Assembly (NCBI GenBank): GCA_037042185.1
Contig: JAXQJY010000032.1
Span: 186,001-250,000, forward strand
DNA: 64,000 nucleotides
Origin: Sordariomycetes sp. S80-01Y
Lineage: Eukaryota; Ascomycota; Sordariomycetes
Direction: 5' to 3'
The notes under the pieces were generated by a model. The model was not told the DNA's origin, made no database searches, and was given only the letters and a program-made list of their open reading frames with translations. The position numbers and the translations under genes are program-made. Shown piece by piece: positions 849 to 26,324 of the stretch; positions within the stretch are counted from its first letter, which is position 1; the number at the start of each line of letters is the position of its first letter.

Positions 849-3800
849 CTATGAATGGGGTGTCGAGATGGAGCTATCGGCGAAATGGACATTCACTTGT
901 GCCTGCGCGGCCAGTGAGCAGAGGCGGGCATCTTCGAAAATGGAAGCAACCGCCAGTTCGATGCCGTATTGGCGGGCTTGTAGAACCAATTGGATGGCGC
1001 TGAAGGAGTCCCCGCCGATCTGTAGAAAGCTGTCATCTCGCCCGATGGAGTCGACCGGGAGGCTCAACACGTTTGCCCACAGCCTCTGTAGCTGCTTTTC
1101 CACGGCGGTCTCCGGTGGCCGTTTAGAAGCCTCCACGAGGGCGTATGCGGCCATCTCGCCCGGAGTGAGCGATGCTGTCCGTTCGCGAATTTGCTTTCTA
1201 TCCAGCTTCGCCGACGTCACGTAGGGCAAATAGCGGCATGGGATGAAGATGGTCGGTATCATGTACAGCGGAAGCCTGATCTTCAGCTCGCCAACGGCAA
1301 GGGCTATCTTGCTCTCCAAGTCGCCCGAGAGGGGGAGGAACATGTTCTCAGACTTCTCGTGCCCCCCTTCTGTGCGCTGTACCATGCTGGCGGTGGCAGG
1401 AGACCTTAGGTAGGCCACTAGTTGGATGTTATCATGGCCGGTCTGGAGCGTATCAACAACCACCTGCTCCACGTCCGGCAGGGCGAGTTGAATGTTGTGC
1501 TCGATCTCGCCGAGTTCCACCCGGAGGCCGCGAATCTTGACCTGGGTATCTCTCCTACCCAGAAACTCGATTGTTCCGTCCGCGTTGTGGAAGGCAAGGT
1601 CGCCGGACCTATACATGCGACCCCATGGCTCCTCGTCCCTCCGAGGCGCCCATTCAGGCAGACTTGTGAGGACCGACTCCTCCGTTCTTTGGGGGTTAGA
1701 TAGATACTCGCGAAGCAACGACGGGCCCTGGATAACGAGCTCGCCAACGCAACCGATCGGCGCCAGCTGGTGCGGGTCTTCGGGGTTGACAATCCAGCCG
1801 TGGCCACCAATCGGTCGACCAATGGTTAACGGCGACTCGTCGACGAATTTCCACTCGTGGTAGGCACTATTAACACACGTTTCCGTAGGACCCCAGCCGT
1901 TGATCAGGCGCACCCGCCCAAACCAGGTATCCAGCACGTCTCGGCTAGACGCCTCTCCGATTAGAAGAAGCACCTCGAGGCTCGGAACCTCCTGGGGTTG
2001 CAGAGTTCGCGCCACTGATGGGGTGAGGGCGGCCCAGTTAATGGCATGGTCGTTGATGAACTTAGCTAGCTCATTTACGCGGCTGTGCTCGGATGGGACA
2101 TAAACACAGCCGCCCGACGCCAGTGTGGCGACGATTTCGAGTATACAAATATCAAAAACACTTGAAGAGAAATGCAGCATGCGCGTGTTCGAGTCCATGC
2201 CTAATCTCTTGGCCGTGGCAACCTGGCTTGTACACACGGCCCGGTTCTCTAGTAATACCCCCTTGGGGGTGCCCGTGCTACCTGAGGTGAAGAAGCAGTA
2301 CGCGGCATGGCGGCCGTCTGCTTGGCTCGGCAGGGCCTGAAGTCCTTCCTCCATCGGATCGGGCTGGGGCATCCCAGGGAGAGCGGAGTCGACTTCCAGA
2401 ACGTCGAGGCCGAGGTTCCGACACTTCCCCGACTGACCCGGCGAGGCGAGGGCGAGGGTTGACCGGGTCTGCCGGATAATCTCTTGAAGTCGCTGGGCGG
2501 GATGCGATGGGTCGAGAGGGACCCAGGCGGCGCCCGCCTTGTTGATCGCTAGGATCGCCACGAAGAACCAGACGGACTTTTCGAAGCAGACGGGCACGAG
2601 ACTCTCCACTCTAACCCCGAGCACGACAAGACGCCGGGCGAGAGCAGTGGCAGCCCCGTCTAACTCGGCATAGGTGAGCGCACCGTCCCAGGCGCGGATG
2701 GCCGGGGCCTCAGGCTGGCGCCGGACCTGCCTTGCTACCACCTCGTGGATACATTCATCCACCAGGTCAGGGACTTCTTCGTTCCAATCAGTTGCCTGCT
2801 GCACGTCCCACGGGCCCACAGGTGATATACTGCCTACGGTAGCGTTGTGCCCAGCCACGAGCTGCGTCAGTATTGCTTCGAAGTGTTTCGACAGGGCCTC
2901 GGCCTGCATGTCTGCCATAGTGCGGGAGTCAAAGGCCATTTCGACCTCGACTTGCTCGTCGTGAAGCAGGAGCTGCACAACGAGTGGGTAGTTGAGGTAG
3001 CCTTCGAGAACAGACTCGTCGGACTCCGCCCGACTTGCTTCCACGGGGGTCATGATCGCATGAGACGCCGCATCGGACGCCGCATCGGAGTCCAGTAGCC
3101 GGGCTGGTTGAATAATGAGGTGGTTCGAAAAGTCGCACGCTTCATTGGCCTCGGGGCTGAGCTTGGCGATGTTTTGCAGGCCGAACTGCTCAAACGGCAC
3201 CATCTCCGACGCCTGCCTCTGCATATCCTGCAGGAGGTCGCGTATATATTGCTCGGGATGTAGGCGAACGCGGAGGGGGACGGTAGCGAGCACCGGTCCC
3301 GACGTGCGGTCAAGTCCCGGGACGGGGGCCTGACGGCCAGACACGGACGTTCCCACGCATATGTCATCAGTGTTACAGTGCCAAGATAAGGTGAGTACCC
3401 ACGCCGCGCGGAGTATGGTCGCCTTCGTGATAGACGAGTCAGCGGGGAGCCGCAATGGGATGGATCTCCTCCTCGAGCGGTCGAGGCGGACGCCAGCGTT
3501 TGATCCATGCCGGACGCTCCAATGCAGAAACTTAGTCCGTTTGGCGCCGTTCATCTGTGCCTTCCAGAACTCTGCGCCGGCCTGCTCGTCAAGATTCCGT
3601 ACGTATTGGACGAATCCATTGAAGGGTTGAATAATTGGGTTGGCGGTAGTGGCGCCATAGTAAAAGGCAGATAGCGTTTCTCGAATCAAATTCATACTCC
3701 ACCCATCGTAGATGGAATGGTGCATCGTGAGGGAAAAGTAGCTGCTCCCGTCGGAACCCCTGGCAAGTCCATAATGGCAAAGTTCTGTGCCGTAGCTGAA

Positions 3801-6800
3801 CGGGGAGCCCTTGGTCTCCTGAAGGACGGTATCCAAAGGACGGTTGTCGTCGTCGTTCCATTGGTTTCGTCGATTCAACACAACCTGAATCGCGCGCTCA
3901 TCGACCAAAACGATACGCGTTCGTAGCGCCGCGTGGGCCGAAACGGTATACATCCATGACTGCTTAAAACGATCCACATCTACATGTGCCGATAGCTTGT
4001 AGATAAGCCTGATAATATAGAAGCCGGGCTGGGTAATGGTGAGCGCCATAAGGCCCTCCTGTAAGGGCGTACAGGGATAGGCGTCTTCGATTACGTCCTC
4101 TTCGGCTAGGTGGCATTGCTTGTAGACTTTATCTAATAGATGGTCAAGCCCGTCTTGTGGTAGCAAGCTAAAGGCCGGAATGCATAGAGGCTCTAACTTA
4201 TCCACCGGATAAGTGATATCTGGCATCTTAGACGCCATCTGGTGGAGGCGCGCATCGTCAAATATAGAGCTGACGGTTAGGTCGATGCCGCGTCGGCGGG
4301 CCTGTGAGACTAAATGAATAGCGCCGATGGAGTCGCCGCCGAGCTGGAAGAAGCTGTCGTCCCGACCAATAGAGTCTGCCGGAATACCCAGTACAGACGC
4401 CCACAGTGTCTGCAATTCCCTCTCCGTTGCCGTTGCCGGTGGCCTTTTCGTAGCATCGACAAGGGCGTACGCGGCCAGTTCGCCCGCGCTCAGTGATGCC
4501 GTCTGTTCGCGCAACTTCTTTCTGTCCAGCTTTCCCGACGTCACATAGGGCCAATAGCCGCAGGGGATGAAGATGGTTGGTACCATATAGCGCGGCAGCC
4601 TGGCTTTCAACTCCCGGACGACGTGGGCGGTCAGATGCTTCAGATTGACTGATAGGGGAAGAAACAAACTTTCCGGCTCCGGCCGTTCAGATGGCTCGCT
4701 CTGTAGGTAGGCCACCAGGTGTAAGCCGGTATCCGTCTCAAACGTGTCGACGACGACCTGCCCTCCATCCGGCAGGGCCAAGCGGATGTTTTGCTCGATC
4801 TCGCCGAGCTCCACCCGAAGGCCGCGGATCTTAACCTGTGTGTCCTTCCTCCCAAGAAACTCGATTGTTCCGTCGGCGTTGTAGAAAGCAAGGTCACCGG
4901 TCCTGTACATGCGGGCCCAAGCTTCCTCATGCCTCCAAGGCGCCCAGCCGGGCAGCTTGGCGAGTACTGTTGTATCCGTCCTCGGACGATCCGCGAGGTA
5001 TTCTCTAAGCAGTGTCGGGCCCTGGATAAGGAGCTCCCCCGTACAGCCGATAGGGGCCAGGCGTAGATCATGTGGGTTGACGATCCAGCAGTGTCCGCCC
5101 ACCGGCCGGCCGATGGTTAACGGCGAATCGTCAACGGATCTCCATTCGTGGAGCGCGCTATACACGCACGTCTCCGTGGGACCCCATCCATTGATCAGTC
5201 GTACGCGACCGTACCAGATATTGAGGATATCTCGGCTCGACGGCTCTCCGATAAGAACTAGCACCGCGAGGCTCGGGGTCTGTTGTGGCGCAAGGGTCCT
5301 TGTAACCGAAGGGGTAAGGGCGGCCCAGCTAACGGAGCTTTCACCGATGAAGCTCGCTAGGTCATTCATGCGGCTATGCTCGGATGGTACACAGATACAC
5401 CCTCCAGAAGCTAACGTAGCGACGATTTCGAAGATACATGCGTCAAAAATATAGGATGAAAATTGTAGCATGCGTGTGTTCGAGTCCATGCCCAGCCTCT
5501 CGGCCGTGGCCACTTGGCTTGTACACACGGCCCGATTCTCCATCACGACGCCCTTGGGCTGCCCCGTGCTCCCGGAGGTGAAGAAGCAGTAGGCCGTGTT
5601 GCGACCCGAGGCCAGGTCGCTCCATGCCAGTGGGGCTTGGTCGGATCGATGAGCCTCATGGAAGGCTGAGTCGACCTGCACAACCCGCAGACCAAGGCGG
5701 CGGCAGGCCTCGGCTTGGTCCGCCGAGGTCAGAGCGAGCGTTGACCTGGTTTGCAGAAGCACGTCTTTGTGCCGCTGGCTAGGGTGCGACGGATCGAGGG
5801 GAACCCAGGCGCCACCGGCCTTGTTGATCGCCAGGAGGGCGACGAAGAACCAGATGGACTTTTCGAAGCAGACGGTCACCAAGTGCTCCACCTTAACCCT
5901 GAGGTCGAGGACGAGATGACGAGCGAGAGCATTGGCCGCTCCATCGAGCTCGGCGTATGTAAACTCTCCGTCCCAGGCGCTGATGGCGGGAGCACCGGGC
6001 TGACACTGTACCTGCCTCTGCACCAGCTGATGGATGCATTCGTCGACGACTTCCGGTACGTGCTCGTTCCAGCGGCCAGCTTGCTGCACATCCCATTCGG
6101 TTACCGGCGAGAGGTCGCCCAGTGTGGTGTCGCTGCTCCCCAATAGCTGCTGTAAGAGACCCTCAAAATGGTGCGACAGCGCCTCGGCCTGGGTATCGGA
6201 CATGGCATGAGAGTCGAAAATGGTGTGGAAGTCGACGTGGTCGTCGTGGACGATTATTTGCACGAGCAGTGGGTAGTTGAGGTATCCTTCGGGGTGACCC
6301 TCGTCCGAGACCGCTGTCGCCTCCACCGGCCTCATGATGGTATCTTGAGTGGCGAAGGAGTGCAGAAGCTGGGCCGGCTGGATGACGAGATGGCATGCAA
6401 AGTCGCACGCTTCACGGGCGTCCGCGCTGAGCCTGGCGATGTTCTGCAGGCCAAAGTGCTCGAAAGGGACCATCTCCGACGCTTGCCTCTGGATGTCCCG
6501 CATAAAGCCGCCGACGGTCTGTTCGGATCGTATCCTCACGCGGAGCGGAACGGTGGCGACCACGGGGCCAGGTGTGCGGTCGAGCCCTGGAATAGGGGCC
6601 TGGCGCCCAGACACGGACGTTCCCACGCACACATCGTCGCTATTGCAGTGCCAGGACACTGTAAGGAGCCAGGCGGCGCGAAGCACTGTCGCCTTGGTGT
6701 AAATTGAGTCTGCGGGGAGCCGGAACCGGATGGGCCTCGTCCTCGAGCGGTCTAGACGAGCTCGCATGGTAGGTGAGCCTTGCCGGGCACGCCCGTCCAG

Positions 6801-9434
6801 GAAGTGGCTTGGTTTGGCACCGTCCATCTGCTCGCTCCAGAATGCCTCGCCGGCTTGATAATCCAAACGGCCGAGGTGTTGGATGAAGCGGCTGAAGGAC
6901 TGCACGGCGTGGGCTTCGGTCTTGTGATAGAGGGAGGTCAGGGTCTCGACAGCGAGGTTCATGCTCCAGCCATCATATATCGCATGATGCAGTGTGAGGG
7001 CAAAGTACGGTTGGCCGTCAGGCCCATCGGCGAGGGCGTAGTGGCAGAGCTGGGTTCCATAGCTAAAGGTGCGACGCTTGGCCTGCTCCAGGACCGAGTG
7101 CAATGGGCCGTCGTCTGTGGAAGACCATGCGACCCTCTGCTTGACAACCACCTGCGTCGCGCGCTCGTCGACCAGGACGATCCGCGTCCGCAGCGTCGCG
7201 TGGGCCGAGACGGTCCGGCTCCATGACTGCTTGAAGCGATTCACGTCTACGTGCGCCGATAGCTTATAGAGCAGCCTGATAATGTAATAGCCGGGCTGGC
7301 TGATGGTGAGCGCCATGAGACCCTCCTGCAGGGGCGTGCAGGGATAGGCATCTTCAATCACGTCACCGTCGGCCAGGTGGCATTGCTTGCGGCTCTGGTC
7401 TAATAGATGGTCGAGCTTGTCCTCTGGCAATAAGCTGAAGGCTGGGACTGGTGGAAGCTCGGTCTCCTTCTCGTCCACGGCACTGTTGATGGCCGATGCC
7501 TTGGAAGCCATCCCGCGAAGGTGGGCATCGTCTAAAACGGAGGCGACGGTCAGCTCAATGCCGCAACGGCGGGCTTGCGAGACCAGGCGAATAGCACTGA
7601 TTGAATCGCCGCCGAGCTGGAGGAAGTTATCATCCCGCCCTATGGAATCGACTGGAAGTCCCGGCACCGACGACCATAGCTTTTGCAGTTCCTCTTCCAT
7701 CGGCGTCTCTGGCGGTCGCTTTGCAGCGTCGACGAGGGCGTACGCGGCCAGTTGGTCCGGGCTTAGCGAAGCCGTCTGTTCACGTAGCCTTTTCCTATCG
7801 AGTTTTCCCGACGCAAGGTACGGCAAGTGCCGACATTGTATGAAGATGGTCGGCACCATGTACATCGGAAGCTGAGCCCTCAACTCAACGACCACGCGGT
7901 CCATCTGACGCTTCAGGGCCGCCGACAGAGGGATAAACATGCCCTCGGGCTGCTCGCCGTCCCGGTTCTCGGCGGCGGGCGAAGAGCGCAGGTAGGCCAC
8001 GAGATGGACGCCGCTGCCGTCTATCTGCACGGCATCTGTGACGACATGCGCCGTTGCCATGTGCGGCAGCAGCATGCGGAGGTGGTGCTCAACCTCGCCG
8101 AGCTCCACGCGGAGGCCGCGGATCTTGACCTGGTTGTCCTTCCTGCCGACGAACTCAATGGTGCCGTCGGCGTTGCGGAACGCCAGATCGCCGGACCTAA
8201 ACATGCGACTCCATGGCTCCACGTCCGCCCTGGGGGCCCAGTCGGGCAGCCGGGTGATGACCGCGTCGTCCGTCTTTTGCCGGTCGTGCAGATACTCGCG
8301 CAGCAGGGTCGGACCCTGGATCAGAACCTCCCCCGTGCAGCCGGCAGGGACGAGCCGGCACGGGTCTTCGGGGTCGACGATCCAGCAGTGACCCCCCACG
8401 GGCCGGCCGATGGTCAGCGGCGATTCGCGAGCAGACCGCCACTCGTGTATCGTGCTGTTGACGCACGTCTCCGTGGGACCCCATACGTTGATCAGACGGA
8501 CATGCTCCACCCACGCCTCGAGTATGTCCCGGCCGGCGGCTTCTCCTCCTACCACCAGCACCTCGAGAGCGGGAACCTGCTGGGGTGCCAGCGTTCGGGC
8601 GACCGAGGGGGTCAGTGCGGCCCAGTTGATGGCGTAGTCGTTGATGAACTGGGCCAGCTCGTTCATGCGGCTGTGCTCAGACGGGACGCAGAGGCAGCCT
8701 CCGGCCGCGAGCGTGGCGACGGTCTCGAAGATGCATGCGTCAAATACGCACGACGAAAATTGCAGCATGCGCGTGTTCTGGCTCATTCTCATCCTCTTGG
8801 CTGTGGCTAACTGGCTCGTGCACACGGCTCGATTATCTATCACGACGCCCTTGGGGATCCCAGTGCTCCCGGAAGTGAACAGGCAATAGGCCGCATGGCG
8901 GCCGGACGGCCGGACCCACGCCGCGCTCGGCCCGGACCCGGACACGGCACCGGCACCGGCCCCACCGGATCCGTGTGCTGCTGCCCCGTGAAAGGCAGCA
9001 TCGACCTCGAGGACGTGGAGGCCGAGACCGCGACACGTCTCTGCTTGAGCCGGAGAGGCCAGCGCGAGCGTCGATCGGGTCTGCCGGACTACCTCCTCGT
9101 GCCGCTGCACAGGGTGGGATGGCTCGAGGGGAACCCAGGCACCACCGGCCTTGTTGATTGCCAGGATGGCGACGAAGAACCAGGCTGACTTCTCAAAGCA
9201 GACGTGCACCAGTGTCTCAATCTCGACACCAAGCTTGGTGACGAGATGCCGAGCGAGGATCTCGGCTGCTGCATCCAGCTCAGCATAGGTGAAGACGCCG
9301 TCCCAGGCGCAGATGGCTGGAGCAGCAGGTTGGCGCTGCACCTGTCTCGCTACTAAGTTGTGGATGCATTCATCCAGCACGTCAGGGACTTCGCCGCTCC
9401 ACTCGGCGGCCTGTCGCATCTCCCACTCTTCCAT
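849..9434 (-). CDS. Three-module nonribosomal peptide synthetase, A-T-C-A-T-C-A-T
   Basis: Uninterrupted 2861-residue frame starting at a true ATG. Approximate domains: A1 20-560, T1 575-640, C1 675-1090, A2 1115-1650, T2 1665-1735, C2 1765-2185, A3 2205-2760, T3 2775-2845. Each A domain has the TSGSTGxPKGV loop, WGPTETCV, (S/T)GDLAF, KIRGLRVELGE and LDRK motifs. Each T domain keeps the phosphopantetheine serine (GGDS). Both C domains keep the active site (HHAIYDG, HHSIYDG), so all look functional. Aligning to the GrsA pocket by eye gives ten-residue codes D-A-F-A-V-G-V-V-N-K (A1), D-A-F-A-V-I-G-V-Y-K (A2) and D-I-L-A-L-I-G-V-N-K (A3); I cannot assign substrates. There is no N-terminal C domain and no TE, R or terminal C domain. 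The N-terminus starts inside what is a post-C linker in modules 2 and 3 (WDVQQA..W). A separate thioesterase at 12.5 kb could release the peptide. The three A domains are very alike, suggesting module duplication. Confidence 0.95.
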   Translation of the reverse strand: MEEWEMRQAAEWSGEVPDVLDECIHNLVARQVQRQPAAPAICAWDGVFTYAELDAAAEILARHLVTKLGVEIETLVHVCFEKSAWFFVAILAINKAGGAWVPLEPSHPVQRHEEVVRQTRSTLALASPAQAETCRGLGLHVLEVDAAFHGAAAHGSGGAGAGAVSGSGPSAAWVRPSGRHAAYCLFTSGSTGIPKGVVIDNRAVCTSQLATAKRMRMSQNTRMLQFSSCVFDACIFETVATLAAGGCLCVPSEHSRMNELAQFINDYAINWAALTPSVARTLAPQQVPALEVLVVGGEAAGRDILEAWVEHVRLINVWGPTETCVNSTIHEWRSARESPLTIGRPVGGHCWIVDPEDPCRLVPAGCTGEVLIQGPTLLREYLHDRQKTDDAVITRLPDWAPRADVEPWSRMFRSGDLAFRNADGTIEFVGRKDNQVKIRGLRVELGEVEHHLRMLLPHMATAHVVTDAVQIDGSGVHLVAYLRSSPAAENRDGEQPEGMFIPLSAALKRQMDRVVVELRAQLPMYMVPTIFIQCRHLPYLASGKLDRKRLREQTASLSPDQLAAYALVDAAKRPPETPMEEELQKLWSSVPGLPVDSIGRDDNFLQLGGDSISAIRLVSQARRCGIELTVASVLDDAHLRGMASKASAINSAVDEKETELPPVPAFSLLPEDKLDHLLDQSRKQCHLADGDVIEDAYPCTPLQEGLMALTISQPGYYIIRLLYKLSAHVDVNRFKQSWSRTVSAHATLRTRIVLVDERATQVVVKQRVAWSSTDDGPLHSVLEQAKRRTFSYGTQLCHYALADGPDGQPYFALTLHHAIYDGWSMNLAVETLTSLYHKTEAHAVQSFSRFIQHLGRLDYQAGEAFWSEQMDGAKPSHFLDGRARQGSPTMRARLDRSRTRPIRFRLPADSIYTKATVLRAAWLLTVSWHCNSDDVCVGTSVSGRQAPIPGLDRTPGPVVATVPLRVRIRSEQTVGGFMRDIQRQASEMVPFEHFGLQNIARLSADAREACDFACHLVIQPAQLLHSFATQDTIMRPVEATAVSDEGHPEGYLNYPLLVQIIVHDDHVDFHTIFDSHAMSDTQAEALSHHFEGLLQQLLGSSDTTLGDLSPVTEWDVQQAGRWNEHVPEVVDECIHQLVQRQVQCQPGAPAISAWDGEFTYAELDGAANALARHLVLDLRVKVEHLVTVCFEKSIWFFVALLAINKAGGAWVPLDPSHPSQRHKDVLLQTRSTLALTSADQAEACRRLGLRVVQVDSAFHEAHRSDQAPLAWSDLASGRNTAYCFFTSGSTGQPKGVVMENRAVCTSQVATAERLGMDSNTRMLQFSSYIFDACIFEIVATLASGGCICVPSEHSRMNDLASFIGESSVSWAALTPSVTRTLAPQQTPSLAVLVLIGEPSSRDILNIWYGRVRLINGWGPTETCVYSALHEWRSVDDSPLTIGRPVGGHCWIVNPHDLRLAPIGCTGELLIQGPTLLREYLADRPRTDTTVLAKLPGWAPWRHEEAWARMYRTGDLAFYNADGTIEFLGRKDTQVKIRGLRVELGEIEQNIRLALPDGGQVVVDTFETDTGLHLVAYLQSEPSERPEPESLFLPLSVNLKHLTAHVVRELKARLPRYMVPTIFIPCGYWPYVTSGKLDRKKLREQTASLSAGELAAYALVDATKRPPATATERELQTLWASVLGIPADSIGRDDSFFQLGGDSIGAIHLVSQARRRGIDLTVSSIFDDARLHQMASKMPDITYPVDKLEPLCIPAFSLLPQDGLDHLLDKVYKQCHLAEEDVIEDAYPCTPLQEGLMALTITQPGFYIIRLIYKLSAHVDVDRFKQSWMYTVSAHAALRTRIVLVDERAIQVVLNRRNQWNDDDNRPLDTVLQETKGSPFSYGTELCHYGLARGSDGSSYFSLTMHHSIYDGWSMNLIRETLSAFYYGATTANPIIQPFNGFVQYVRNLDEQAGAEFWKAQMNGAKRTKFLHWSVRHGSNAGVRLDRSRRRSIPLRLPADSSITKATILRAAWVLTLSWHCNTDDICVGTSVSGRQAPVPGLDRTSGPVLATVPLRVRLHPEQYIRDLLQDMQRQASEMVPFEQFGLQNIAKLSPEANEACDFSNHLIIQPARLLDSDAASDAASHAIMTPVEASRAESDESVLEGYLNYPLVVQLLLHDEQVEVEMAFDSRTMADMQAEALSKHFEAILTQLVAGHNATVGSISPVGPWDVQQATDWNEEVPDLVDECIHEVVARQVRRQPEAPAIRAWDGALTYAELDGAATALARRLVVLGVRVESLVPVCFEKSVWFFVAILAINKAGAAWVPLDPSHPAQRLQEIIRQTRSTLALASPGQSGKCRNLGLDVLEVDSALPGMPQPDPMEEGLQALPSQADGRHAAYCFFTSGSTGTPKGVLLENRAVCTSQVATAKRLGMDSNTRMLHFSSSVFDICILEIVATLASGGCVYVPSEHSRVNELAKFINDHAINWAALTPSVARTLQPQEVPSLEVLLLIGEASSRDVLDTWFGRVRLINGWGPTETCVNSAYHEWKFVDESPLTIGRPIGGHGWIVNPEDPHQLAPIGCVGELVIQGPSLLREYLSNPQRTEESVLTSLPEWAPRRDEEPWGRMYRSGDLAFHNADGTIEFLGRRDTQVKIRGLRVELGEIEHNIQLALPDVEQVVVDTLQTGHDNIQLVAYLRSPATASMVQRTEGGHEKSENMFLPLSGDLESKIALAVGELKIRLPLYMIPTIFIPCRYLPYVTSAKLDRKQIRERTASLTPGEMAAYALVEASKRPPETAVEKQLQRLWANVLSLPVDSIGRDDSFLQIGGDSFSAIQLVLQARQYGIELAVASIFEDARLCSLAAQAQVNVHFADSSISTPHS

Positions 9435-14042: not shown

Positions 14043-15191
14043 ATGTCTGAAACCTTCCACCAAGGCCGGTTCCGCTACCTAAATCGGGAGAGCGCGACGA
14101 TCCCCAGTGGCGTGATTGCCCGTCTTCCTAAGCTCTCGTCATTCACAGATCCCTTGGCTCTCTCGGTCAAGGACATCCGACCCACCCTTGCGTTAGGGGA
14201 CCAATCCCCATACACGCTCGGCCACCACGGCTTCACGGCTCGGCACGAACCGTCACGTCTGCATTCCGCGCCGTACGATTATTCCAGCTGGGCGGATCCG
14301 GAGCTGCTAAAGAAGTTCTATCTACCGGAGGTGGAGGCCTTGATCAAACGAGTGACCAACTGCTCCAGGGCGGTCGTGGAGTCGGTCTACATCAGGAACA
14401 AGCTCAATAGTGAGATTCACCCGTCCGCCCCGGTGTCGAAGCCGCCGGAGATTCAAGCGGATGAAGCTGGCCTGGAGGTCCAGTTTGTAGGGTTCTCCGA
14501 TGTTGGCGGCGGGGCCCCGGCCCCCAAGGTCCATCTGGACTACACCCCTACCGGGGCGCGGCTGCGCATTCGAAAGCATTGCCTGAGAGTGGCCACCGCC
14601 GCTGAGAAGGTTATCGAGGCCGAGAACAAGCTTTTGTCGTCCGGGGTTGGGTGGGACGAACTGAAGGACCACTGCGGCGACGAAGGCCGTCCCGTCCCGC
14701 GCTTCGCCATCTTTTCGGTCTGGCGGCCATTGAAACACGTCCGCCGGGATCCCATTGCAGTTTCAACGATGGCGACATTTCCCGCGACTGATACCATCTA
14801 TTTCGACTCTACGCAGCATTCGGACCCTCGAATTCCCCGACATCTGTCTCGCAAGATTGACCCCAGCCAACCGCAAGACGATGAATCCGAGGGCCAAAGT
14901 GGTACCGAGACTGAGGTCACACATACGAGTGGCAACGTGTTGGCGTATCCGCCGTCGGATGCCGGAAATGGTCACGACTGGCACTTTATTTCACAGCAGA
15001 CTCCAGAAGATGTCCTGATCATCCAGCTATTCGACAACCATGTAGAGGCTGAGCTGTCATCTGCGGCTGCACCAAGCGACGGGATGCCTCCCATCGCGGG
15101 AGCTATGCATAGTTCCTTCGATCTCGAAGGGCAAGACACGACAGCTGACACTCGTGAAAGCATGGAGTTGCGGGTAATGGCTTTCTGGTAA
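14043..15191 (+). CDS. CmcJ/asaB-like oxidoreductase (hydroxylase/desaturase family)
   Basis: Single exon; I use the ATG at 14043 (MSETFHQGRF), giving 382 residues, because the 43 codons upstream are low complexity and lie in the promoter. Features of the fungal asaB/CmcJ-related family: an N-terminal RFRYLNRES, then LGHHGFTARHEPS, KKFYLPEVEALIKRVTN, the VHLDYTP stretch with a possible metal-binding His/Asp, RFAIFSVWRP, HDWHFISQQTPEDVLIIQLFDN and a tail ending ESMELRVMAFW. Members of this family are thought to be iron-dependent oxygenases acting on secondary metabolites. A later histidine (AMHSSFD) could complete a facial triad. It sits between the thioesterase and the bZIP gene, so it is a likely tailoring enzyme of the peptide. 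The region from about 280 to 320 is acidic and looks like an insertion. Confidence 0.8.
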   Translation: MSETFHQGRFRYLNRESATIPSGVIARLPKLSSFTDPLALSVKDIRPTLALGDQSPYTLGHHGFTARHEPSRLHSAPYDYSSWADPELLKKFYLPEVEALIKRVTNCSRAVVESVYIRNKLNSEIHPSAPVSKPPEIQADEAGLEVQFVGFSDVGGGAPAPKVHLDYTPTGARLRIRKHCLRVATAAEKVIEAENKLLSSGVGWDELKDHCGDEGRPVPRFAIFSVWRPLKHVRRDPIAVSTMATFPATDTIYFDSTQHSDPRIPRHLSRKIDPSQPQDDESEGQSGTETEVTHTSGNVLAYPPSDAGNGHDWHFISQQTPEDVLIIQLFDNHVEAELSSAAAPSDGMPPIAGAMHSSFDLEGQDTTADTRESMELRVMAFW

Positions 15192-16066: not shown

Positions 16067-17572
16067 ATGTCTCATATCTCTAACCATGAACCGTCCGCAG
16101 AGGAGCCGTACAACGTACAACCTCCTTCTTACACGAATGCGGGAGAGATGAGGCCCAACGACGACTGGTCTGAGATCACGGACCGGAAGCTCAAGAAGCG
16201 AATGCAAAACCGTGTCGCACAGCGCACTTACCGTGATTTGCCGTGACTTCCTATCGAATAGGTCAACCTCGCATGTGGCTGACTGGTACTAGGACAACGT
16301 ATGAAAGCCCGTCTTGAAGAGCTCCAGGCAAAGCTAGACGACTCGAATCGAACCAACCAGATTACGGATACGAAGACTGCGAAAACTGCGAGTATAGGCT
16401 CGCGCCCTGACGAAAATAGAACAGATGGGTTAGACCGCACTGCTACGCTTGAGTCACCATTCGAGGTGGCGCCGGCAAGGTTATCCACTACGCAGCCATC
16501 GGACGCCAGCTCTAACCACCTCGCGGCTCAGTCTGACCGAGATAGTCAGGTGAGAGGCAAGGGTACGTACGACATCACGGGTCATCATGAACAGAGCCAC
16601 CGCGACTATGCCAACAACATGGCCAGGCAAGAAGAGACAAGGAGCAATGGGCTGATGGGTAGAGAGTTAAAGTTCGCCCCGAGCGTCGACCAGAGTACGC
16701 TAATGATTGCATAGGTACAGTTGCGATGGCGGAGCTGTCGCAACAGGGGTGCCCTTCTATCATGCCCGAGAACGACGAGAGCGTGGACTTCTTCCTCGGA
16801 AGCCTTGACACCTGGAAGCCCGAAGAGTTTGCCCAGCTCATACACCAGACACCCAGCCCGCTGGACCTGACAGGTTCAGATGCGCCTTCCACCGCCGCGG
16901 CGTCTGCAAGCCTGCCTCCTTCTTCCTCCCTGGAAAACCTGGCATCGCTCGAGGCGAAATTTGAGCTGGTGATGGAGTGTGTTGGAGCGGCAGGATTTGG
17001 AAGCTTTGATGCGCTGGTGAAGTCATACTACGGCGATGCGTTTGGGGAAGGATCGCGACTGTCCAACGAGCAACGCCTGAGTCGGAGTCGGAGGCTACCG
17101 AGCGTTCTTTCGGACATCGTTCGCTCGGCAGGGAGCTGGGGAGCCTGGGAGCGACGCGGGCTGTACGAAGAGGTGCTGAAGGCAGCCGAAGAGGCGCTGA
17201 TAGGCGAGCATGGCCGCGCCGGCAGCGCCATGGACGACTGCATTGCTCCGGTCGTCGAGTCGGAAGGCAACCCGAGCGCAGGCTGCGTGCGCAGGGCCAT
17301 TGCCGCGCTGACATCTGCCGCCCCTACCAGTGTGAGTGGCGCCTCGTCCCTGATCGGTGGAAGAGAGGGTGTGGCACATCTTCAGCGGGTTTTAACCAAC
17401 GCAGCTTCCGAGCCAATGGGCGTTATTGATGGCCCTCGCCGCCTCGGACAAGCCAGCTTGGCAGCGGGATTGCCCAGGTACGGCCCTCGCAATCGTCGTC
17501 TTGCTGCAGTTTGCGGGCCGCATAAGCACGGACCAGGTGATGGATTTGATTCGTGCTTGTATAGAACCCTGA
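16067..17572 (+). CDS. bZIP transcription factor, probable cluster regulator
   Basis: Four exons, 16067-16232, 16293-16562, 16715-17331 and 17405-17572, give 406 residues. Intron 1 (60 bp) splits the basic region; joining it gives KKRMQNRVAQRTYRQRMKAR, the DNA-contacting helix, followed by LEELQAKLDD as a short zipper. Intron 2 (152 bp) uses donor GTACGT and acceptor GCATAG. Intron 3 (73 bp, GTGAGT...CGCAG) replaces an implausible reading with a natural hydrophobic helix ending ISTDQVMDLIRACIEP. A downstream stop at 17622 in the unspliced frame is therefore not used. The C-terminal third has a helical region usual in metabolite-cluster bZIPs. The protein would act in the nucleus; AP-1 and CRE-like sites in the NRPS promoter are plausible targets. 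Intron 2 is the least certain junction. Confidence 0.85.
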
Positions 17573-18158
17573 GGAGGTGGGATGTCGGGGGACGATGGCA
17601 GGGTACAAGGCTGACGGGGTAAGCATACCCCGCCAAGGCGATATTACACAACCAATAAGAAACAGTTACTTGCCGTTTGGATATATGGCGCCATATCTGA
17701 CTTTGGGGATCGCCTCCAAGCATGCGGAGCGCCTCCCCGAAGTCGACTCGCACCCTCTTCATCAACAACGGAATCGTTCTAGAAAAATGCATCGACAGTA
17801 GTTGCATTTCGATGCTGTTCCAGTACGGACTCCAGCTTCGTTAAATCTCTTCTGATGCCGCTCTGAGAATCGATCCGGCACTTCTCACGCACGTGGGTCC
17901 GCGAGCAGAGCATAATGGCTCGATCCCGATGAAGCAAGCACAATGGAACGAGTAATTTGATGCAAAAGCATGCCATCCAAAAGCTGCGGGGCATACGCAC
18001 ACACACACATGCCTGTACGTGCGATGGTAGCCGTGCCCCTGCCAGCATCATGACACCATGCCGTTACGCCGCGTACGCAGCTTCTAGAACCAGGCGAAGC
18101 ACATCCAGAGTACGCAGAGCACAGCGTCGACGCTGGTCTCGACTGCTCCGCTGTTAGA
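17573..18158. other. Intergenic, convergent 3' ends of the two regulators
   Basis: No gene seen. A short (AC)n run lies near 17998-18010. Confidence 0.6.
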
Positions 18159-20550
18159 TCAGGGATGGACTGACGCTTCTCGGCCCCGCTCCGGCCGCAG
18201 CCACTCGAACGTGTCGAGCAGCTCAAAGTCAAAGTCAAGCTGCACGTCATCAATTAGTTCGGGTAGCCTGGCACCGGTGCCGTTGAGCGTGTGATCCAGA
18301 ACATGCTGAATGACGCGGCTGCAGTTCGCGCTCAGAATGCTGTTCGGTGCCAGGGGTCCGACCCAGTCCAAAAACCCAACAAGGAGACTCAGCTGTTGAA
18401 CAATGGCGGAGCGGGTGACGTTCGCATCACAAGGGTGGGAGTCGATGAAGGATTGGTGAAGCAGCTCCATGCACAGGATACCGCCGGCGGGCGCGGCGTA
18501 CGCCATGACCTGAGGTAGGGCTTGAGTCAGCGGAGGAATCGTTTGGGCAACACGAGAGATCATACAAGGCAGGGAAAGTCCAGGCGGGCGAAGGCAAAGC
18601 GATCCTTGTTTTTCCACAGGAGGAGGGTCAAGGCTACCATGTCGAAACTGGTCACTAGAAGGTCGCTATGATTGTTGTGGCCCCGCCGGGAGAGAAGGCG
18701 GTCCACGACGAAGATGTTCTCCAGGTGCTCCAGTCGAACTAGGAGCCTCTCGTAAACCTCGGCATCGGTCGAGCTCCCGCTATCGAACTCGCTGCGCTGA
18801 AAGATTAATGACGGAGGGACGTCGGCAAACGTTCGCAGCTGTCGTTCCCTGATCTCACTGTCCCGCCGATGGGGGGTCAGCTGTGCTCGCGCTCGGAGGG
18901 CGAGAGGAAAGCCGAATCTCTTCAAGAACAAGACTCACAGCAACATCTCTAATGAGCCAGCTGTCCAGTTCCCTGAGGTAATCTCGATCAGCTCCTCGCG
19001 GATGGACGCAATCATCAGGCGCGTTCGCAAGCTTGTCGCCGCATACAAGTGACCTTCCGTATTCCACCCGTTTGCATCTATGAACTGCATAGCCCTCGCA
19101 ACCTCCTGATGACCAGCCATGAGGTCTTCGTCTCGTAGGTCGAGGGGCGGCGTAGTCGAGGCGTAGCGGCGGCTGAGCAGGGGAGGTCGGCCGGTGAACA
19201 GGGCCACATCCTTGTCCAGGATAAACAGATGAGCGGCGGCTCTGCGCCTTATCTCCGAACACAGAGTTGGTTGACACGGAGCAGAGCGGTCATCGGACTC
19301 GGCATGCAGTCCCAGAAAGGTCAGCAACGACACCGATTCGGCCAGATATCTCCAGCAGGCAGCCCCTGAACGCCCCCGTCCATCGTGTTAGCATGAACCG
19401 ATTTCCCCTCTCTGACTTCCTGAAACCACCTGGGATGGAGCTAAGGCGCGAACTTACCAGCGTCGCCGGAGACCACCGACTCGGCAATGGCGCGTCGGAT
19501 ACACAAGTGAAGCAGAAGACAGTTGGGGCTGCCGAATCGTCGGGCGAGATCGATGCAGAGACCCAAGCAGAAGCGAGACAGGACGGCCCATGGCTCTCCC
19601 ATGACACCAAAGTCTTGACGAATGTGACCCTTGCTCGAAGACACCGATTCTTCGCAGAACTCCCGGAGGCTGAATAGGAGCCCCAAGGATTCCCATCGGA
19701 GGTTAGCGCCGGAGAATTGATCGATCCATCGATCGGGGTCAGCCTCCTCATCCGAAAACTCCCGTGCCGTATTCCGTGCCAGCAGTATGGCGACTTCCTG
19801 CAGCCGTGCATCACTGCGGTTCTTCCCAAGATGGTCGCTAAACTGTTCGTACAGCGAGGTCAGAACGCGTCGACCCGCCATGTGGACCCAGCCTTCGTAG
19901 GGGGGAGGGGAGGTGATGAGAGCGTGGCGGCGACCTGGCGTCAGCGGCGGCAGTCGGCGCAGGACGACAAGGCACGTGTCCAAGGCCAAGGAGAGCGAAA
20001 TGCGAGACGTGTCCCGGGCTGGATGACTCTGCCGACCGTGCTCGGGGCCGGGACTCTGGCCGGGAGAGCCGCCCAGAAGCGACAGTGTGCTCAGCGTCTC
20101 TTCATACACGGCGGAGTGATTTATGATGCCGAAGAAGCCAGGTGTCGACCGCCTCGGTGCCGTCGATGGACATGCCAAGATGTCTGACAGTCTCGCAACC
20201 ACATCGTCGGTGGAGGGCCGGCCTCTGGTCGAAGTCGACGTTGGTGCCACGGCATCCGCCGAGGGGATGGCCCTGGACCTCGCGCTACGCCGTGGCGGTA
20301 GCTCTTCTTCTGCTGCTCGCCGACGGACCGAGCCCCTCGCTGTGCTTTTTTCCATTCCGGGAACCCTACTTGCCGCTGTCACGGTGTAAGCGCATACACC
20401 CTCTCGCGCTGTGGCAATGCATCTGTTGCAGATGGGATGTGTGTGGTCGCATGCAACCTTGCGGCCGCGGCATGGGTCGCAGGCCTGAGGCCGACCATTT
20501 CGTCTCAGCAATACAGTTGAGGCACTGGCACTGGCGGTATCCATCGGCAT
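18159..20550 (-). CDS. Zn2Cys6 transcription factor with fungal-specific TF middle domain
   Basis: Four exons, 20550-19458, 19365-18939, 18857-18566 and 18509-18159, give 720 residues. The N-terminal binuclear cluster reads CDPCRGRKVAC, then C at +6 and CNRC, fitting C-X2-C-X6-C-X5-C-X2-C-X8-C (residues about 24-52). Intron 1 (92 bp) joins GDAG to GAACWRYLAESVS, the conserved start of the fungal TF middle-homology region. Intron 2 (81 bp) removes an in-frame TGA, and intron 3 (56 bp) joins DFPCL to VMAYAAPAGG; all junctions keep frame. The middle domain includes FTGRPPLLSRR and NGWNTEGHLYAAT. It is a likely pathway-specific regulator of the cluster, next to the bZIP gene. The alternative, a regulator of unrelated genes, cannot be excluded. 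Confidence 0.85.
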
Positions 20551-21122: not shown

Positions 21123-22178
21123 CTAGTCCGCAGTAGCTGCGACCAGCGGCTGCAATTCAAAGATGACCGAGAGGGATGGTGGCATGAGGTGGTGCTGTCT
21201 TGTGCACTTCCAGCCGCCGTCCTCAAACACCCCCTCCCAGTCCTCCAACGTCGGCAGGGTCGCGCCCATCAAGGCGTGCCCGAATTCAAAACCAAGGGTG
21301 AAGATGGGAATGTCGTCCTCTTCCACCTGGTGTCTGGTATCCGGCTTGCCTGTCAGGATGCGCATGGTGTCGCAAAGAAAGAAGCGCTGCACCTTTGGGA
21401 ATGCCTTTCGCAAGTTCTGAAGAGAAGCGATGCAGTTTTCCCGAGGCCAAAAGTCATGCCCCATCAGGAACGAAGTGAGCAGGTCGACGTTCGAGAATCG
21501 TTCACAGGGCTTCAGCTGCAGCACGTCGCCCTCCATGAACGAAATTCGATCGCCGTAACCCTGTCTCGTGCATCTTTCCTCGGCGACAGCAATCGCGGGC
21601 CCAGCTATGTCGACACCTAGACCAACACTTCCATCGTACTGATCGAGGATCTGCATCAGCCTCTCGCCACTTCCGCTACCCAAGTCCACGACCGAGTGGA
21701 ACGAATGAGGGACGGAAGCCAGCGCCTTTAGGAAAGCGTCGTCAAAGAACTGCGTGTTCGCGTCGCGGCAAGCCAAGGCTATGGCCGCAGAATCGCGCGA
21801 ATAGTACGCCCCTGTCCGGTTCTCGTTCCGAAGGGCGTGCTGCATGCGCGCAAAGAGGCTGCCCGACCCCAGCGCAAGCCAGTGGAACAGCCCCTTGGTG
21901 GTGTAGACCTCGCTGAATAGGGCATCTGGCACGATGCAGTCGCCCGATCGCCTCACTACGCCAACGCTGCAGAGTGCGGATACGAGACCTTGGAGAGAGA
22001 GGCGATCGAGGTCTTTCTGACTTGCAAACGTGTCAACAGACACTTCGCGGTGATGAAGCATCTCGTCCAGAAGGCCGACCTCCCAAGCAGCTCCGATGGC
22101 TCCAGCGGCAATGTGCGAATTGAAAATGCCCGCAACTTTCTGCTTTGCAGAGGGCTCTGTATCCATGGTGACACTCAT
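21123..22178 (-). CDS. Class I SAM-dependent methyltransferase
   Basis: 351 residues from the ATG at 22178 (MSVTMDTEPS); another ATG lies four codons on. The frame is open further upstream but without an ATG. The first 130 residues look like a helical winged-helix dimerisation region (AAGAIGAAWEVGLLDEM, LSLQGLVSALCSVGVV). The SAM motif I is VVDLGSGSGERLMQIL at about residue 175, followed by GLGVDIAGPAIAVAEERC and a motif-II-like FMEGDVLQL. A Tyr/Ser-rich segment GAYYSRDSA precedes it. It would transfer a methyl group to O, N or C of a small molecule in the cytosol. It lies between the Zn2Cys6 factor and the aminotransferase, which argues for a role in the cluster product. The acceptor atom is unknown. 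Confidence 0.82.
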   Translation of the reverse strand: MSVTMDTEPSAKQKVAGIFNSHIAAGAIGAAWEVGLLDEMLHHREVSVDTFASQKDLDRLSLQGLVSALCSVGVVRRSGDCIVPDALFSEVYTTKGLFHWLALGSGSLFARMQHALRNENRTGAYYSRDSAAIALACRDANTQFFDDAFLKALASVPHSFHSVVDLGSGSGERLMQILDQYDGSVGLGVDIAGPAIAVAEERCTRQGYGDRISFMEGDVLQLKPCERFSNVDLLTSFLMGHDFWPRENCIASLQNLRKAFPKVQRFFLCDTMRILTGKPDTRHQVEEDDIPIFTLGFEFGHALMGATLPTLEDWEGVFEDGGWKCTRQHHLMPPSLSVIFELQPLVAATAD

Positions 22179-22431: not shown

Positions 22432-22556
22432 TAGCTTACCGTGACAGCTTACCATGCTAACTTACTGCGCCGAAATACTGCAACAGCTTACTGCAACCGC
22501 TTACCGCACCAGCTCATCACATCCGTGCCGCATTACTGCGACAGCCTACCGCACCA
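22432..22556 (-). repeat. Degenerate GCTTAC array (reverse complement of the 13.8 kb array)
   Basis: About seven GCTTAC/GCCTAC/ACTTAC units in 125 bp, often AGCTTACYGYR, spaced about 12-18 bp. On the minus strand this reads as GTAAGCT units like those at 13787-13870. It lies in the divergent promoter between the methyltransferase and the aminotransferase. Confidence 0.7.
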
Positions 22557-22697
22557 TCTCACGGCACCGCCGTTCGGGGCTAGTCGGGTGTCACGCTGCA
22601 AGATTGCACATTAAGCAAGGACTCCGGCACCAGCGTGTCCGGCCTCACGTTCGTTGCCATCATGATCGCCCAGCCGACCACTTCGTCCCACACTACG

Positions 22698-23887
22698 ATG
22701 GCCGCCTTCCCTCCGCCTCCGGCCGAGGCCATTCAGTGGTCCCAGCTAGGGTTTGACATAATGGAAGGTTGGTGGAGATTCTTCCCTTCGAGCCCTACCG
22801 ACTAATTATGAAATGCGCAGTGAATGGTCACATCGAGTCAACCTACGCAACCGCCACAGGCCAATGGGGTCCGTTGCTATTTGTAACCGACCCCTACCAA
22901 CGAATTCACGGCATGGCACCTGCTCTAAATTATGGCCAGCAGTGCGGGGAAGGCCTGAAGGCCCATCGCATGCCGGACAACTCAACCATTGCCATCTTCC
23001 GGCCGGATAAGAACGCAAGACGAATGCAGCACTCAGCCGCCGTGGCTTCCTTGCCTCTCGTCCCTATAGACATGTTTGTCCAAGGATGTCGGTCGGCTGT
23101 GGCTATGAACGCTGCCTTCGTACCACCGCACGAGACAGGAGCGGCGCTGTACCTCCGCCCTCAGCTGTTTGCATCCAGCGCGCAGTTAAGCCTTACGGCA
23201 ACGGAAGAGTACAAGTTCTGCGTGTACGCAGTGCCTGTAAGCACCATACATGGGATGAAACCCGTCAGGGCGCTCATACTAGATGAATTCGACCGCTCGG
23301 CTCCAAGGGGGGTCGGCCACGCAAAGCTTGGAGGCAATTATGCACCTGTCCTTCGCTGGAGCGCTAAGGCGAAGCGAGCGGGCTACGGAATCACTTTGCA
23401 TCTCGATAGCGTCAGGCACGAGCAGATAGAAGAGTTCAGCACCAGCGGATTTGTCGGCATCAGAGAAGACAACGGCAGCGTCACCATAGTGGTACCTGAT
23501 TCGGAATGCATCATAGAGAGCATTACAAGCGATTGCATCCTCCAGATTGGGCGTGATCTAGGCTGGAAGACGGAGAAGAGACGCATCTTGTATGCCGAGT
23601 TACCGGCTTTCACCGAGGTGATGGCCGCTGGCACGGCATCCTCCCTGGTACCGATACAGTCCGTCACCCGCCAGTGTCTGATACCTTCGCTGCCAGCATC
23701 CCCCAGAGTGTCGGTTCATGACTCAAGCCAGACGGTAACGTACATGCCTGATTCTCAAACAGGCGCGGGGCCGATTGGAACCCGGCTCCTGCGGGAGCTG
23801 CGAGCTCTCCAGCTGGGCACGGTTGAGGACAGATTCAACTGGCGCTGCGAGGTTGTCGCAGCGGACATGAACATGGGGCAAACCTGA
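22698..23887 (+). CDS. Branched-chain amino-acid aminotransferase (PLP fold type IV)
   Basis: Two exons, 22698-22767 and 22821-23887, give 378 residues; an in-frame ATG at 22662 would add 12. The 53 bp intron has branch CTAAT and acceptor GCGCAG; it links QWSQLGFDIMEG to VNGHIESTY. Family blocks: WGPLLFVTDPYQRIHGM, APALNYGQQCGEGLKAHR, IAIFRPDKNARRM, and GVGHAKLGGNYAP, where the lysine is the PLP-binding residue. The enzyme moves an amino group between branched 2-oxo acids and glutamate. BCAT homologues occur in known fungal cyclic-peptide clusters (for example TOXF in HC-toxin biosynthesis), so a cluster-dedicated copy is likely. The N-terminus lacks an obvious mitochondrial presequence, unlike primary-metabolism BCATs. 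Together with the ELFV dehydrogenase it suggests supply of an unusual aliphatic amino acid. Confidence 0.88.
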
Positions 23888-24062
23888 ACCCAACTCTCCA
23901 TCGGCCGTCGGTCGGGAGCAGACGTATAGGCAAGCTTTAGTATAATCTCATAGCGCATATCGCGAGGTCCTGTCGCATTTTCATCAAACGGGTCTACCAG
24001 TCCCTGTTAACTTTCATCTCTTGTTGACTCCGTAACAAACGCTGGGATGAACAAGCTGAACT

Positions 24063-24524: not shown

Positions 24525-24695
24525 AAAAAATACAGAGTAGGCCAAGAAACAGCGTTGGACTCAAGCCATATATCAGAATTGTGTGCTGCACTCTATCGAA
24601 CCCCATATGCGCCCTTTCACAGGATGCATCGCATCGTAAGGCACCCTGCGCTCTATATAGTCTTCAAAGCCCGTATTCAAGATTCTCGTAGACGT

Positions 24696-26324
24696 CTATT
24701 CCTCTTCTTGCCAAGTGGTAGCAAGCAGTTCCTGATCCAATGATCTGTCCTGCCCCTCTTGCTGAAGTTTGCGTATGACGGCTTGCGATTCTGCAGCGAA
24801 GGGACACTTCTGGCGAATGGCTGGGCCGTACTTGAAGAGAAGAAAGGGAAAAGGTAAGCACAGCAGAGCTAAGAAGGCCGGTATGGTGGAAGCCCAGTGG
24901 ATGCCGAGTTGACGGTACATGTAGGGTGTGAACAAAGGAAAGGCCGCGCCAAACAACGCCCGTAGGAGCGTGTTCGCCGCAACGACCGAGGCTGCAAAGA
25001 TCGTATAGGCATCAATCAGGTAGTTCAGGATGCTCAGAAAGACCAAGAGCATGCCAAACCCAAAAGGGATGCCGGCAGCAATGCTGGCCAGCCAGTGCAT
25101 GGTCGGATCGTTCGTCCATGCAAACCAGAACAGTGCAATAGGCAGAGCAACTGCGCCCACCATGGCGGATGGAAGTCGTGCCTCGGGGGACAAGGCACCG
25201 CTGTGTTGTCTTGCGGCCCTGACATACCGTCTATTGTCAACGATGTTGTAGACGACTGCGAGCATGGTGCCAACAATGTTTCCCAGAAACGCCAAGCCAC
25301 TGATCCCTTGACTCCAGCCTCTCTTCTGTCCGTATACGATGGGAAAAGCGGCGAAGAAGAGATACAGCGTGCCATATATGATAGCCATGTAGACGGAAGA
25401 TATCAGCACAATTGGCTCCTTGAAGAGTAGAACCCACGGGCGCGAGAGCGCAAGTTGGAGCGATGAGCCTAGTTGAGGCCTGCCGTTCTCGGTATCGATC
25501 TTACTGATGTATTGCTTGCCAGTCAATCTCGATAGCCGAGCGGCACGTGTGCGTAGCAGTATCGGCGAGTACGTTTCGGGAACGAAAAGAACGCCTGCGA
25601 TCCAAAACAGCCCCGAAAGGATGGCAAGAAACTTCATGATCCACCGCCAGCCAGCTGACTGGCCAAGAAACCCACCGATCATGGGACCGAGTAGAGGCCC
25701 TAGGAAGGGCGCGGCAGCAAATATGCTCGTCGCGAGACCGCGCTCGGCAGCAGAGAACATGTCAGCAACGACAGCCCCTGCGTTGGTCAACGGCGACGAA
25801 CCAAAAGCACCAGCACAAAAGCGTAGAATGGCAAGAACCCACACCTCTCGAGTGTACCCACAGCCGACATTGAAGATCGTAAAGGCGGCATATGTGCCCA
25901 AGAAGACGGGTTGACGTCCGAACACCTCGCTCAACGGCGCCCATAGTAGCGGTCCAATCGCAAATCCGGTGACAAAGAGTGACACGCCTAGCACGGACAG
26001 CTCTTCGCCAATGTTGAACTCGACCATAATCTGGTTTAATCCACCAGTGTATGCAGACGAACACAGGGCAACAACAAAGGTCTCGAGGGCCACAACGAAG
26101 GTGACGAACCATTTGGCTCCCGGGCTGAAGTTGTGTGGATTTCTCTCGTCACCTGGAATCCAGATCACCTCGAATGGGTCTTCTTCCGTGCCTGATCCAG
26201 GATACGAGTAGTTCGCAACGGCGTCTGTGATCCCGGCCTTGTCAATCACCTGCCTCCAGAGCCCGGGCAACAAGGACGATGAGCGCCGCGTCGACGGGCT
26301 CCCCTCGAGGTTCGTGTCAGTCAT
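24696..26324 (-). CDS. MFS multidrug-type transporter (DHA1 family)
   Basis: Intronless 542-residue protein starting at a true ATG. After a 70-residue hydrophilic N-terminus with NPHNFSPGAKW come about 12 hydrophobic segments. Signature motifs: GPLLWAPLSEVFGRQPVF between TM2 and TM3 (DHA1 motif A-like), LRFCAGAFGSSPLTNAGAVVADMF in TM4-5, and LGPLLGPMIGGFLGQSAGWRWIMK (motif C). The family exports drugs and metabolites across the plasma membrane by proton antiport. At the end of the NRPS cluster, it likely exports the product or gives self-protection. It is the last recognisable cluster gene before a gene-poor stretch. Confidence 0.9.
   Translation of the reverse strand: MTDTNLEGSPSTRRSSSLLPGLWRQVIDKAGITDAVANYSYPGSGTEEDPFEVIWIPGDERNPHNFSPGAKWFVTFVVALETFVVALCSSAYTGGLNQIMVEFNIGEELSVLGVSLFVTGFAIGPLLWAPLSEVFGRQPVFLGTYAAFTIFNVGCGYTREVWVLAILRFCAGAFGSSPLTNAGAVVADMFSAAERGLATSIFAAAPFLGPLLGPMIGGFLGQSAGWRWIMKFLAILSGLFWIAGVLFVPETYSPILLRTRAARLSRLTGKQYISKIDTENGRPQLGSSLQLALSRPWVLLFKEPIVLISSVYMAIIYGTLYLFFAAFPIVYGQKRGWSQGISGLAFLGNIVGTMLAVVYNIVDNRRYVRAARQHSGALSPEARLPSAMVGAVALPIALFWFAWTNDPTMHWLASIAAGIPFGFGMLLVFLSILNYLIDAYTIFAASVVAANTLLRALFGAAFPLFTPYMYRQLGIHWASTIPAFLALLCLPFPFLLFKYGPAIRQKCPFAAESQAVIRKLQQEGQDRSLDQELLATTWQEEE

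Follow-up and report, generated by a model that had tools for sequence, protein, structure and literature searches.

A fungal gene cluster with a trimodular peptide synthetase that points to an unreported small peptide with a β-methyl aromatic residue

What might be made by a nonribosomal peptide synthetase (NRPS) that has no release domain of its own and lies among enzymes of amino acid metabolism? This question is raised by a locus in the ascomycete Sordariomycetes sp. S80-01Y, whose genome assembly comprises 30.9 Mb in 16 contigs. The window, meaning the whole 64,000-nucleotide stretch that was analysed, is C15:186001-250000; positions without a contig prefix refer to the window. An initial annotation had described a contiguous set of nine genes at 849-26324, and open frames, Pfam and NCBIfam profiles and spliced models confirm that all nine are present there. 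In order, they encode the NRPS (-), an ELFV dehydrogenase (+), a thioesterase (-), a CmcJ/NvfI oxidoreductase (+), a bZIP regulator (+), a Zn2Cys6 transcription factor (-), a methyltransferase (-), a branched-chain aminotransferase (BCAT, +) and a major facilitator superfamily (MFS) protein (-), with intergenic gaps of 483-875 bp. Our preferred reading, to which we assign a probability of roughly 0.6, is that this cluster makes a short, probably three-residue peptide that contains a β-methylated aromatic amino acid.

The features on which this reading depends are as follows, with introns placed by our own models (splice consensus and homology).

849..9434, minus strand: trimodular NRPS, 2861 residues, domain order A-T-C-A-T-C-A-T (A, adenylation; T, thiolation; C, condensation), from Pfam and motif positions
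2823..4088, minus strand: NRPS condensation domain 2, motif HHSIYDG (PF00668 at C15:188823-190088)
6096..7355, minus strand: NRPS condensation domain 1, motif HHAIYDG (PF00668 at C15:192096-193355)
10216..12060, plus strand: ELFV amino acid dehydrogenase, 614 residues, with a truncated C-terminal VOC remnant (PF02812/PF00208)
11704..12039, plus strand: VOC remnant inside the ELFV gene (tblastn with eight fusion C-termini)
12544..13522, minus strand: stand-alone type I-like thioesterase, 300 residues, two exons, intron 13173-13248 (PF00975, 1.7e-10 after splicing)
21123..22178, minus strand: predicted MppJ-like α-keto acid C3-methyltransferase, 351 residues, intronless (PDB match to MppJ)
22662..23887, plus strand: branched-chain aminotransferase, 390 residues, intron 22768-22820 (Aminotran_4, PF01063, 2.8e-23)

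The methyltransferase, left without a subtype in the initial annotation, is classed as generic by Pfam and NCBIfam profiles alone. In the PDB, it matches MppJ over residues 7-343 of 351 (2.3e-106, 358.8 bits); the second protein follows at 1.2e-10, and each other listed solved chain scores at most 44.1 bits. MppJ is the bacterial phenylpyruvate C3-methyltransferase of mannopeptimycin biosynthesis in Streptomyces. The two proteins are identical at 166 of 329 aligned residues (50%). The window protein keeps all of what we take to be the iron ligands of MppJ (H, D and H at 243/244/295), as well as the presumed substrate-side R, W and M. We aligned 122 sequences, namely the best 120 of 315 relatives, the window protein and MppJ, with no listed relative dropped. 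The HD ligands and the R, W and M, with the roles presumed above, occur in all 122 and the third His in 121. At the position that we take to be MppJ V300, the window protein has Ala, as do 12 of the 122, and 97 have Val. In the tree of these sequences, MppJ forms a small clade with two named bacterial sequences and one unlabelled sequence amid mostly fungal ones. No other such gene was found in the genome.

By kinship, then, we regard the window protein as a putative MppJ-type phenylpyruvate C3-methyltransferase. This kinship implies that a β-methyl aromatic residue would be supplied before assembly, rather than the finished peptide being methylated, and it would explain the presence of two unusual amino acid enzymes beside the NRPS. 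The initial annotation had expected a non-standard aliphatic amino acid, which the kinship to MppJ does not support. Its broader outline, a small methylated and oxidised product of a short NRPS and a trans thioesterase, remains the best one available.

An MppJ-like protein of Alternaria gaisen (P0285) bears the name “Phenylpyruvate”. Because the AK-toxin of this fungus contains a β-methyl-Phe part, P0285 is a candidate for the corresponding step.

A fungal relative of MppJ has been studied in the biosynthesis of unguisin in Aspergillus. According to the accessible text of that study, this protein, UgsB, methylates phenylpyruvate and neither Phe nor cyclised peptides, and a UgsB deletion strain lost unguisins 3 and 4 while keeping 1 and 2 (PMC12113358). 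The words aminotransferase and transaminase are absent from the main text, which names, as far as searched, no enzyme that aminates β-methylphenylpyruvate (PMC12113358). Unguisin thus resembles the window in that a fungal MppJ-like methyltransferase feeds a fungal NRPS. By contrast, the unguisin NRPS is a cyclising enzyme of seven modules with a terminal C domain, whereas that of the window has three modules and no terminal C domain; an alanine racemase accompanies the former, and the accessible text mentions no trans thioesterase.

The window NRPS is a single open frame (849-9449, minus strand) with three AMP-binding, two Condensation and three PP-binding domains in Pfam. No further Pfam domain (thioesterase, reductase or third C domain) was found in the frame, which ends 51 residues beyond the last T-domain serine. 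The HHxxxDG motif is present in both C domains and the Ser in every T domain. The NRPS is therefore trimodular and release-less, as had been noted at the outset. Its A domains are 66.8-70.0% identical to each other and its two C domains 65.1%. Against 119 other NRPSs, the A domains reach at most 55.5% identity in the six best-scoring matches per domain. Because the mutual identity exceeds that to other NRPSs, the three modules seem to be copies of a single module, and they may accept similar residues. Over its length, the nearest NRPS from other sources has 48% identity. A further match (P0056) is 97% identical and was taken to belong to a close relative, alongside an ELFV dehydrogenase (P0001) and a methyltransferase (P0176).

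The stand-alone thioesterase, also proposed initially, is borne out by the PF00975 match of the two-exon model. Its candidate catalytic residues, chosen by eye, are the Ser in GWSFGG, the Asp in IDT and the His in DTDHF, and its nearest solved structure is NocB (2.5e-10).

One of the two amino acid enzymes appears to derive from fusion proteins. Both Pfam ELFV domains of the dehydrogenase are above their cut-offs, and the catalytic residues K67, K80 and D116 are retained, which places it in the ELFV family. A search returned 55 proteins. Most full-length fungal relatives have about 800 residues, with a VOC half after the dehydrogenase; these fusions occur in Fusarium, Colletotrichum, Claviceps, Plenodomus and some basidiomycetes, and are about 50% identical to the window protein over the dehydrogenase part. 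We aligned 26 of the 55 matches, window species included. The dehydrogenase Lys/Lys/Asp and the VOC His/His/Glu are present in all 25 chosen relatives, whose VOC half is a complete two-unit one. In the window copy, which is truncated, the VOC triad is missing: Leu replaces the first His and the remainder is absent. Apparent window matches aligned at H683 and E725 belong to an unrelated tail and not to the VOC site. In sequence terms, the window protein appears to be a descendant of the ELFV-VOC family that has no VOC metal site.

A missing exon or a frameshift was considered and rejected. With the C-termini of eight fusions, tblastn found matches (E ≤3.3e-6) only at 11704-12039 and no VOC continuation downstream, and P0001, from another assembly, is equally long and agrees at 611 of 614 residues. 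That assembly belongs to a close relative and not to the same strain, given that 340 of 347 aligned residues are identical in the methyltransferase and 2774 of 2852 in the NRPS. Since fusions also occur in basidiomycete outgroups, the VOC half was most simply lost secondarily in the window lineage.

By sequence, the VOC stretch of one fusion relative (P0002) matches methylmalonyl-CoA epimerase first (3.6e-5) and then HPPD (0.01). Methylmalonyl-CoA epimerase has a Gln metal ligand, and the H/H/E pattern without this Gln leans towards the oxygenase side. AlphaFold models are confident over the dehydrogenase body, and pLDDT in the P0001 model is below 50 at 458-488, 545-577 and 593-614, which are parts of the remnant. 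The fold comparison used P0002; the 50 rows returned for its whole model were all ELFV-type dehydrogenases, so that this comparison in effect covered the dehydrogenase half.

The dehydrogenase and the methyltransferase are linked in some other fungi as well. Judged from consecutive locus tags, ELFV and MppJ-like genes are adjacent in three of four comparable genomes (Fusarium sp. NRRL 66182, F. musae and Claviceps maximensis), and the paired ELFV genes are ELFV-VOC fusions. In each of these three, the contigs that carry the two genes also match in length. In the tree of the best 120 of 315 methyltransferase relatives, the window protein belongs to a clade of 19 members (support 0.998), among them all three paired genes, and a second methyltransferase of Fusarium NRRL 66182 (3271) falls outside it. 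The 11 named members of this clade are confined to Fusarium, Colletotrichum and Claviceps, all of which have ELFV-VOC matches. Outside the clade, the named fungal methyltransferases represent 25 genera (counted by hand), and only Fusarium has an ELFV match. Within the clade, the window protein and P0176 are sister to the remaining 17. In the ELFV tree (which omits P0027, P0028, P0037, P0041, P0043 and proteins shorter than 370 residues), the window protein and the remaining ascomycete members are sister groups (support 0.82). These matching placements are what joint descent would give.

A more far-reaching idea is that the MppJ-like methyltransferase and the fused dehydrogenase-VOC protein form an unreported fungal two-gene unit that supplies β-methyl aromatic amino acids of defined stereochemistry. 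The VOC half would epimerise C3 of the methylated keto acid, or process it in another way, and reductive amination would follow; the window cluster, with its VOC half decayed and a BCAT joined, would make the β-stereoisomer opposite to that of the fused systems. We offer this as speculation that will probably not hold as stated.

The BCAT is of the ilvE_II type in NCBIfam, under the NCBI cut-offs. Because it shares 60% identity with another BCAT of the genome (C15:642973-644019), it looks like a duplicated primary-type enzyme. HC-toxin-type fungal clusters contain the BCAT TOXF, and the window likewise has a BCAT gene within a fungal NRPS cluster. This parallel, drawn in the initial annotation, is correct as to the presence of the gene and adds little otherwise: the window BCAT resembles the other genomic copy, and the window NRPS has three modules without a terminal domain. 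Elsewhere in the genome, an NRPS frame of 9072 residues with high-scoring condensation domains (C11:636335-661245) lies about 20 kb from a BCAT-like gene (C11:681449-682432) that is 30% identical to the window BCAT.

From these components, we infer the substrate, the order of steps, the aminating enzyme, the module that uses the β-methyl residue and the product as follows. Phe and phenylpyruvate would be interconverted, and the MppJ-like enzyme would place a methyl group on C3 of phenylpyruvate or of a closely related aromatic keto acid. The amino group would be shuttled by the ELFV dehydrogenase, by the BCAT or by both, linking Phe, phenylpyruvate, β-methylphenylpyruvate and β-methyl-Phe (or a close relative). 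The NRPS would load the β-methyl residue at at least one of its three related modules and join up to three residues, after which the trans thioesterase would release the chain by hydrolysis or cyclisation. Finally, the CmcJ/NvfI-type enzyme might oxidise the peptide and the MFS protein export it.

Several observations weigh against this route. The specificity positions of the A domains, read by eye, are DAFAVGVVN, DAFAVIGVY and DILALIGVN, and these codes do not point to Phe; none of the three is printed in the papers of the literature searched, which lay mostly outside subscription journals and did not include MIBiG. In the accessible text of one unguisin study, the authors describe A-domain codes as poor predictors in fungi (PMC10896222). 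In C. digitariae, the fourth comparable genome, the ELFV and MppJ-like genes are on separate contigs. Strict pairing is further spoken against by Plenodomus, Pestalotiopsis, Jaminaea, Parajaminaea and Trametopsis, which have ELFV matches and no named methyltransferase among the best 120 of 315. Lastly, the three divergent gene pairs (NRPS/ELFV, thioesterase/CmcJ and methyltransferase/BCAT) have no promoter motif in common, with 0 shared 8-mers against a control mean of 0.70 in 500 random triples.

The absence of a common motif would also be expected if the ELFV/MppJ pair and the NRPS were chance neighbours with separate products, and in the three paired genomes the linkage is known for the pair alone. 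However, in the window the pair is interrupted by the thioesterase, the oxidase and the regulators and lies between the NRPS and the exporter with gaps below 900 bp, and the unguisin pathway provides a case in which a fungal MppJ relative does supply an NRPS; we thus consider mere proximity quite improbable. The hydrophobic appearance of all three A domains bears on a different alternative, namely that the methyltransferase acts on another α-keto acid, either a branched-chain one or indolepyruvate, and leads to a β-methyl aliphatic residue or β-methyl-Trp. This alternative is nearest to the idea in the initial annotation. It would fit the BCAT gene, which is divergent from the methyltransferase gene over a shared promoter of 483 bp, and a weak ketoarginine-methyltransferase match of the window protein (52.3 bits, cut-off 425) indicates the wider family of keto-acid methyltransferases. 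The score for MppJ (359 bits, as opposed to at most 44.1 for the other listed solved chains) and the retained residues of the presumed MppJ pocket argue for the phenylpyruvate branch instead and make another keto acid an unlikely substrate.

A further alternative concerns the BCAT. It might be a spare, product-tolerant copy of a primary enzyme that confers self-protection, or it might only supplement branched-chain residues. A second copy of a primary enzyme inside a cluster is a familiar sign of resistance, and the identity of 60% to the other close BCAT of the genome agrees with such a function. Against this, the BCAT and methyltransferase genes form a divergent pair. Moreover, in an engineered E. 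coli route, as described in the accessible text, the transaminase TyrB aminates alongside MppJ (PMC11496134). On balance, a BCAT that stands apart from the β-methyl residue seems doubtful to us, and we retain the route in which it may perform the amination or share it with the ELFV dehydrogenase.

Under this reading, the cluster both extends and differs from what is known. Mannopeptimycin shares with it the methyltransferase subfamily (50% identity, same presumed iron site) and the amination of a methylated keto acid. It differs in being a bacterial glycopeptide made by NRPSs, and we know of no ELFV dehydrogenase in its cluster; the engineered MppJ route relies, as mentioned, on TyrB (PMC11496134). 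While there are known NRPS clusters that MppJ-type enzymes supply, the papers searched describe no combination of a trimodular NRPS and a trans thioesterase with an MppJ/ELFV supply unit. The same literature contained no described cluster in which an ELFV dehydrogenase accompanies an NRPS, no evident match to a Tolypocladium, BCAT and thioesterase cluster, and, for a fungal β-methyl-Phe pathway, the unguisin paper only, as far as its accessible text goes. Nothing on ELFV-VOC/MppJ-like pairing was found there either, including under Fusarium tags (FVEG_06594, its neighbours by number and one guessed F. fujikuroi tag). The initial statement that no described cluster has an ELFV dehydrogenase, a BCAT and a stand-alone thioesterase thus holds within this literature only. 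The cluster points to an unreported β-methyl-aromatic small peptide.

Candidate amination enzymes lie inside this cluster, and one of them, the ELFV dehydrogenase, has relatives linked to MppJ-like genes in other fungi. Two or three purified enzymes would therefore suffice for a direct test of a fungal route to β-methyl aromatic building blocks, and the reading predicts a concrete mass and nuclear magnetic resonance signature for the NRPS product. In addition, an ELFV-VOC gene beside an MppJ-like gene could guide searches of Fusarium, Colletotrichum and Claviceps for clusters yet to be characterised.

The remaining genes of the set are the following.

14043..15191, plus strand: CmcJ/NvfI-family oxidoreductase, Fe/2-oxoglutarate-type (NF041278, 100.6 bits, cut-off 80)
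16067..17622, plus strand: bZIP regulator, introns 16233-16292 and 16659-16714, 3′ end uncertain
18159..20550, minus strand: Zn2Cys6 transcription factor (PF00172, 24.8 bits, cut-off 21), 5′ part clear, downstream exons partial
24696..26324, minus strand: predicted MFS exporter (PF07690, 2.6e-40)

The oxidoreductase belongs to the CmcJ/NvfI family by its score above the curated cut-off, and it matches weakly a 2-oxoglutarate-dependent dioxygenase in the PDB (7eus, 1.4e-5). The spliced model of the bZIP regulator has the basic region NRVAQRTYRQRMKARLEEL, and PF00170 scores 26.0 bits, slightly below its cut-off of 27.6. The Zn2Cys6 gene is separated from the methyltransferase gene by 572 bp.

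Among the frames tested in the flanks (on the left the nearer 10 kb, on the right up to a P450 piece), there is no biosynthetic backbone gene. The left side has a Fringe-like match and a PAN match below threshold, and the right side an NB-ARC/TPR gene. The P450 piece (33993-34736, minus strand; PF00067, 4.3e-36) lies 7.7 kb past the MFS gene and beyond the NB-ARC/TPR gene, and is probably outside the cluster. A PAS-domain protein of 959 residues is encoded at 59402-62278 on the minus strand; the name white-collar-type photoreceptor is a guess.

Other NRPS loci occur in this genome. A condensation-domain match at C2:22635-23987 contains an internal TAG and TAA, which could mean either that an intron is present or that the NRPS has decayed. 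Four NRPS frames of 14,448-21,803 residues are of peptaibol size (C6:536-596 kb, C15:354-405 kb, C14:316-356 kb and C11:2188-2225 kb), and the one at C15:354-405 kb is on the same contig as the window, about 105 kb to its right.

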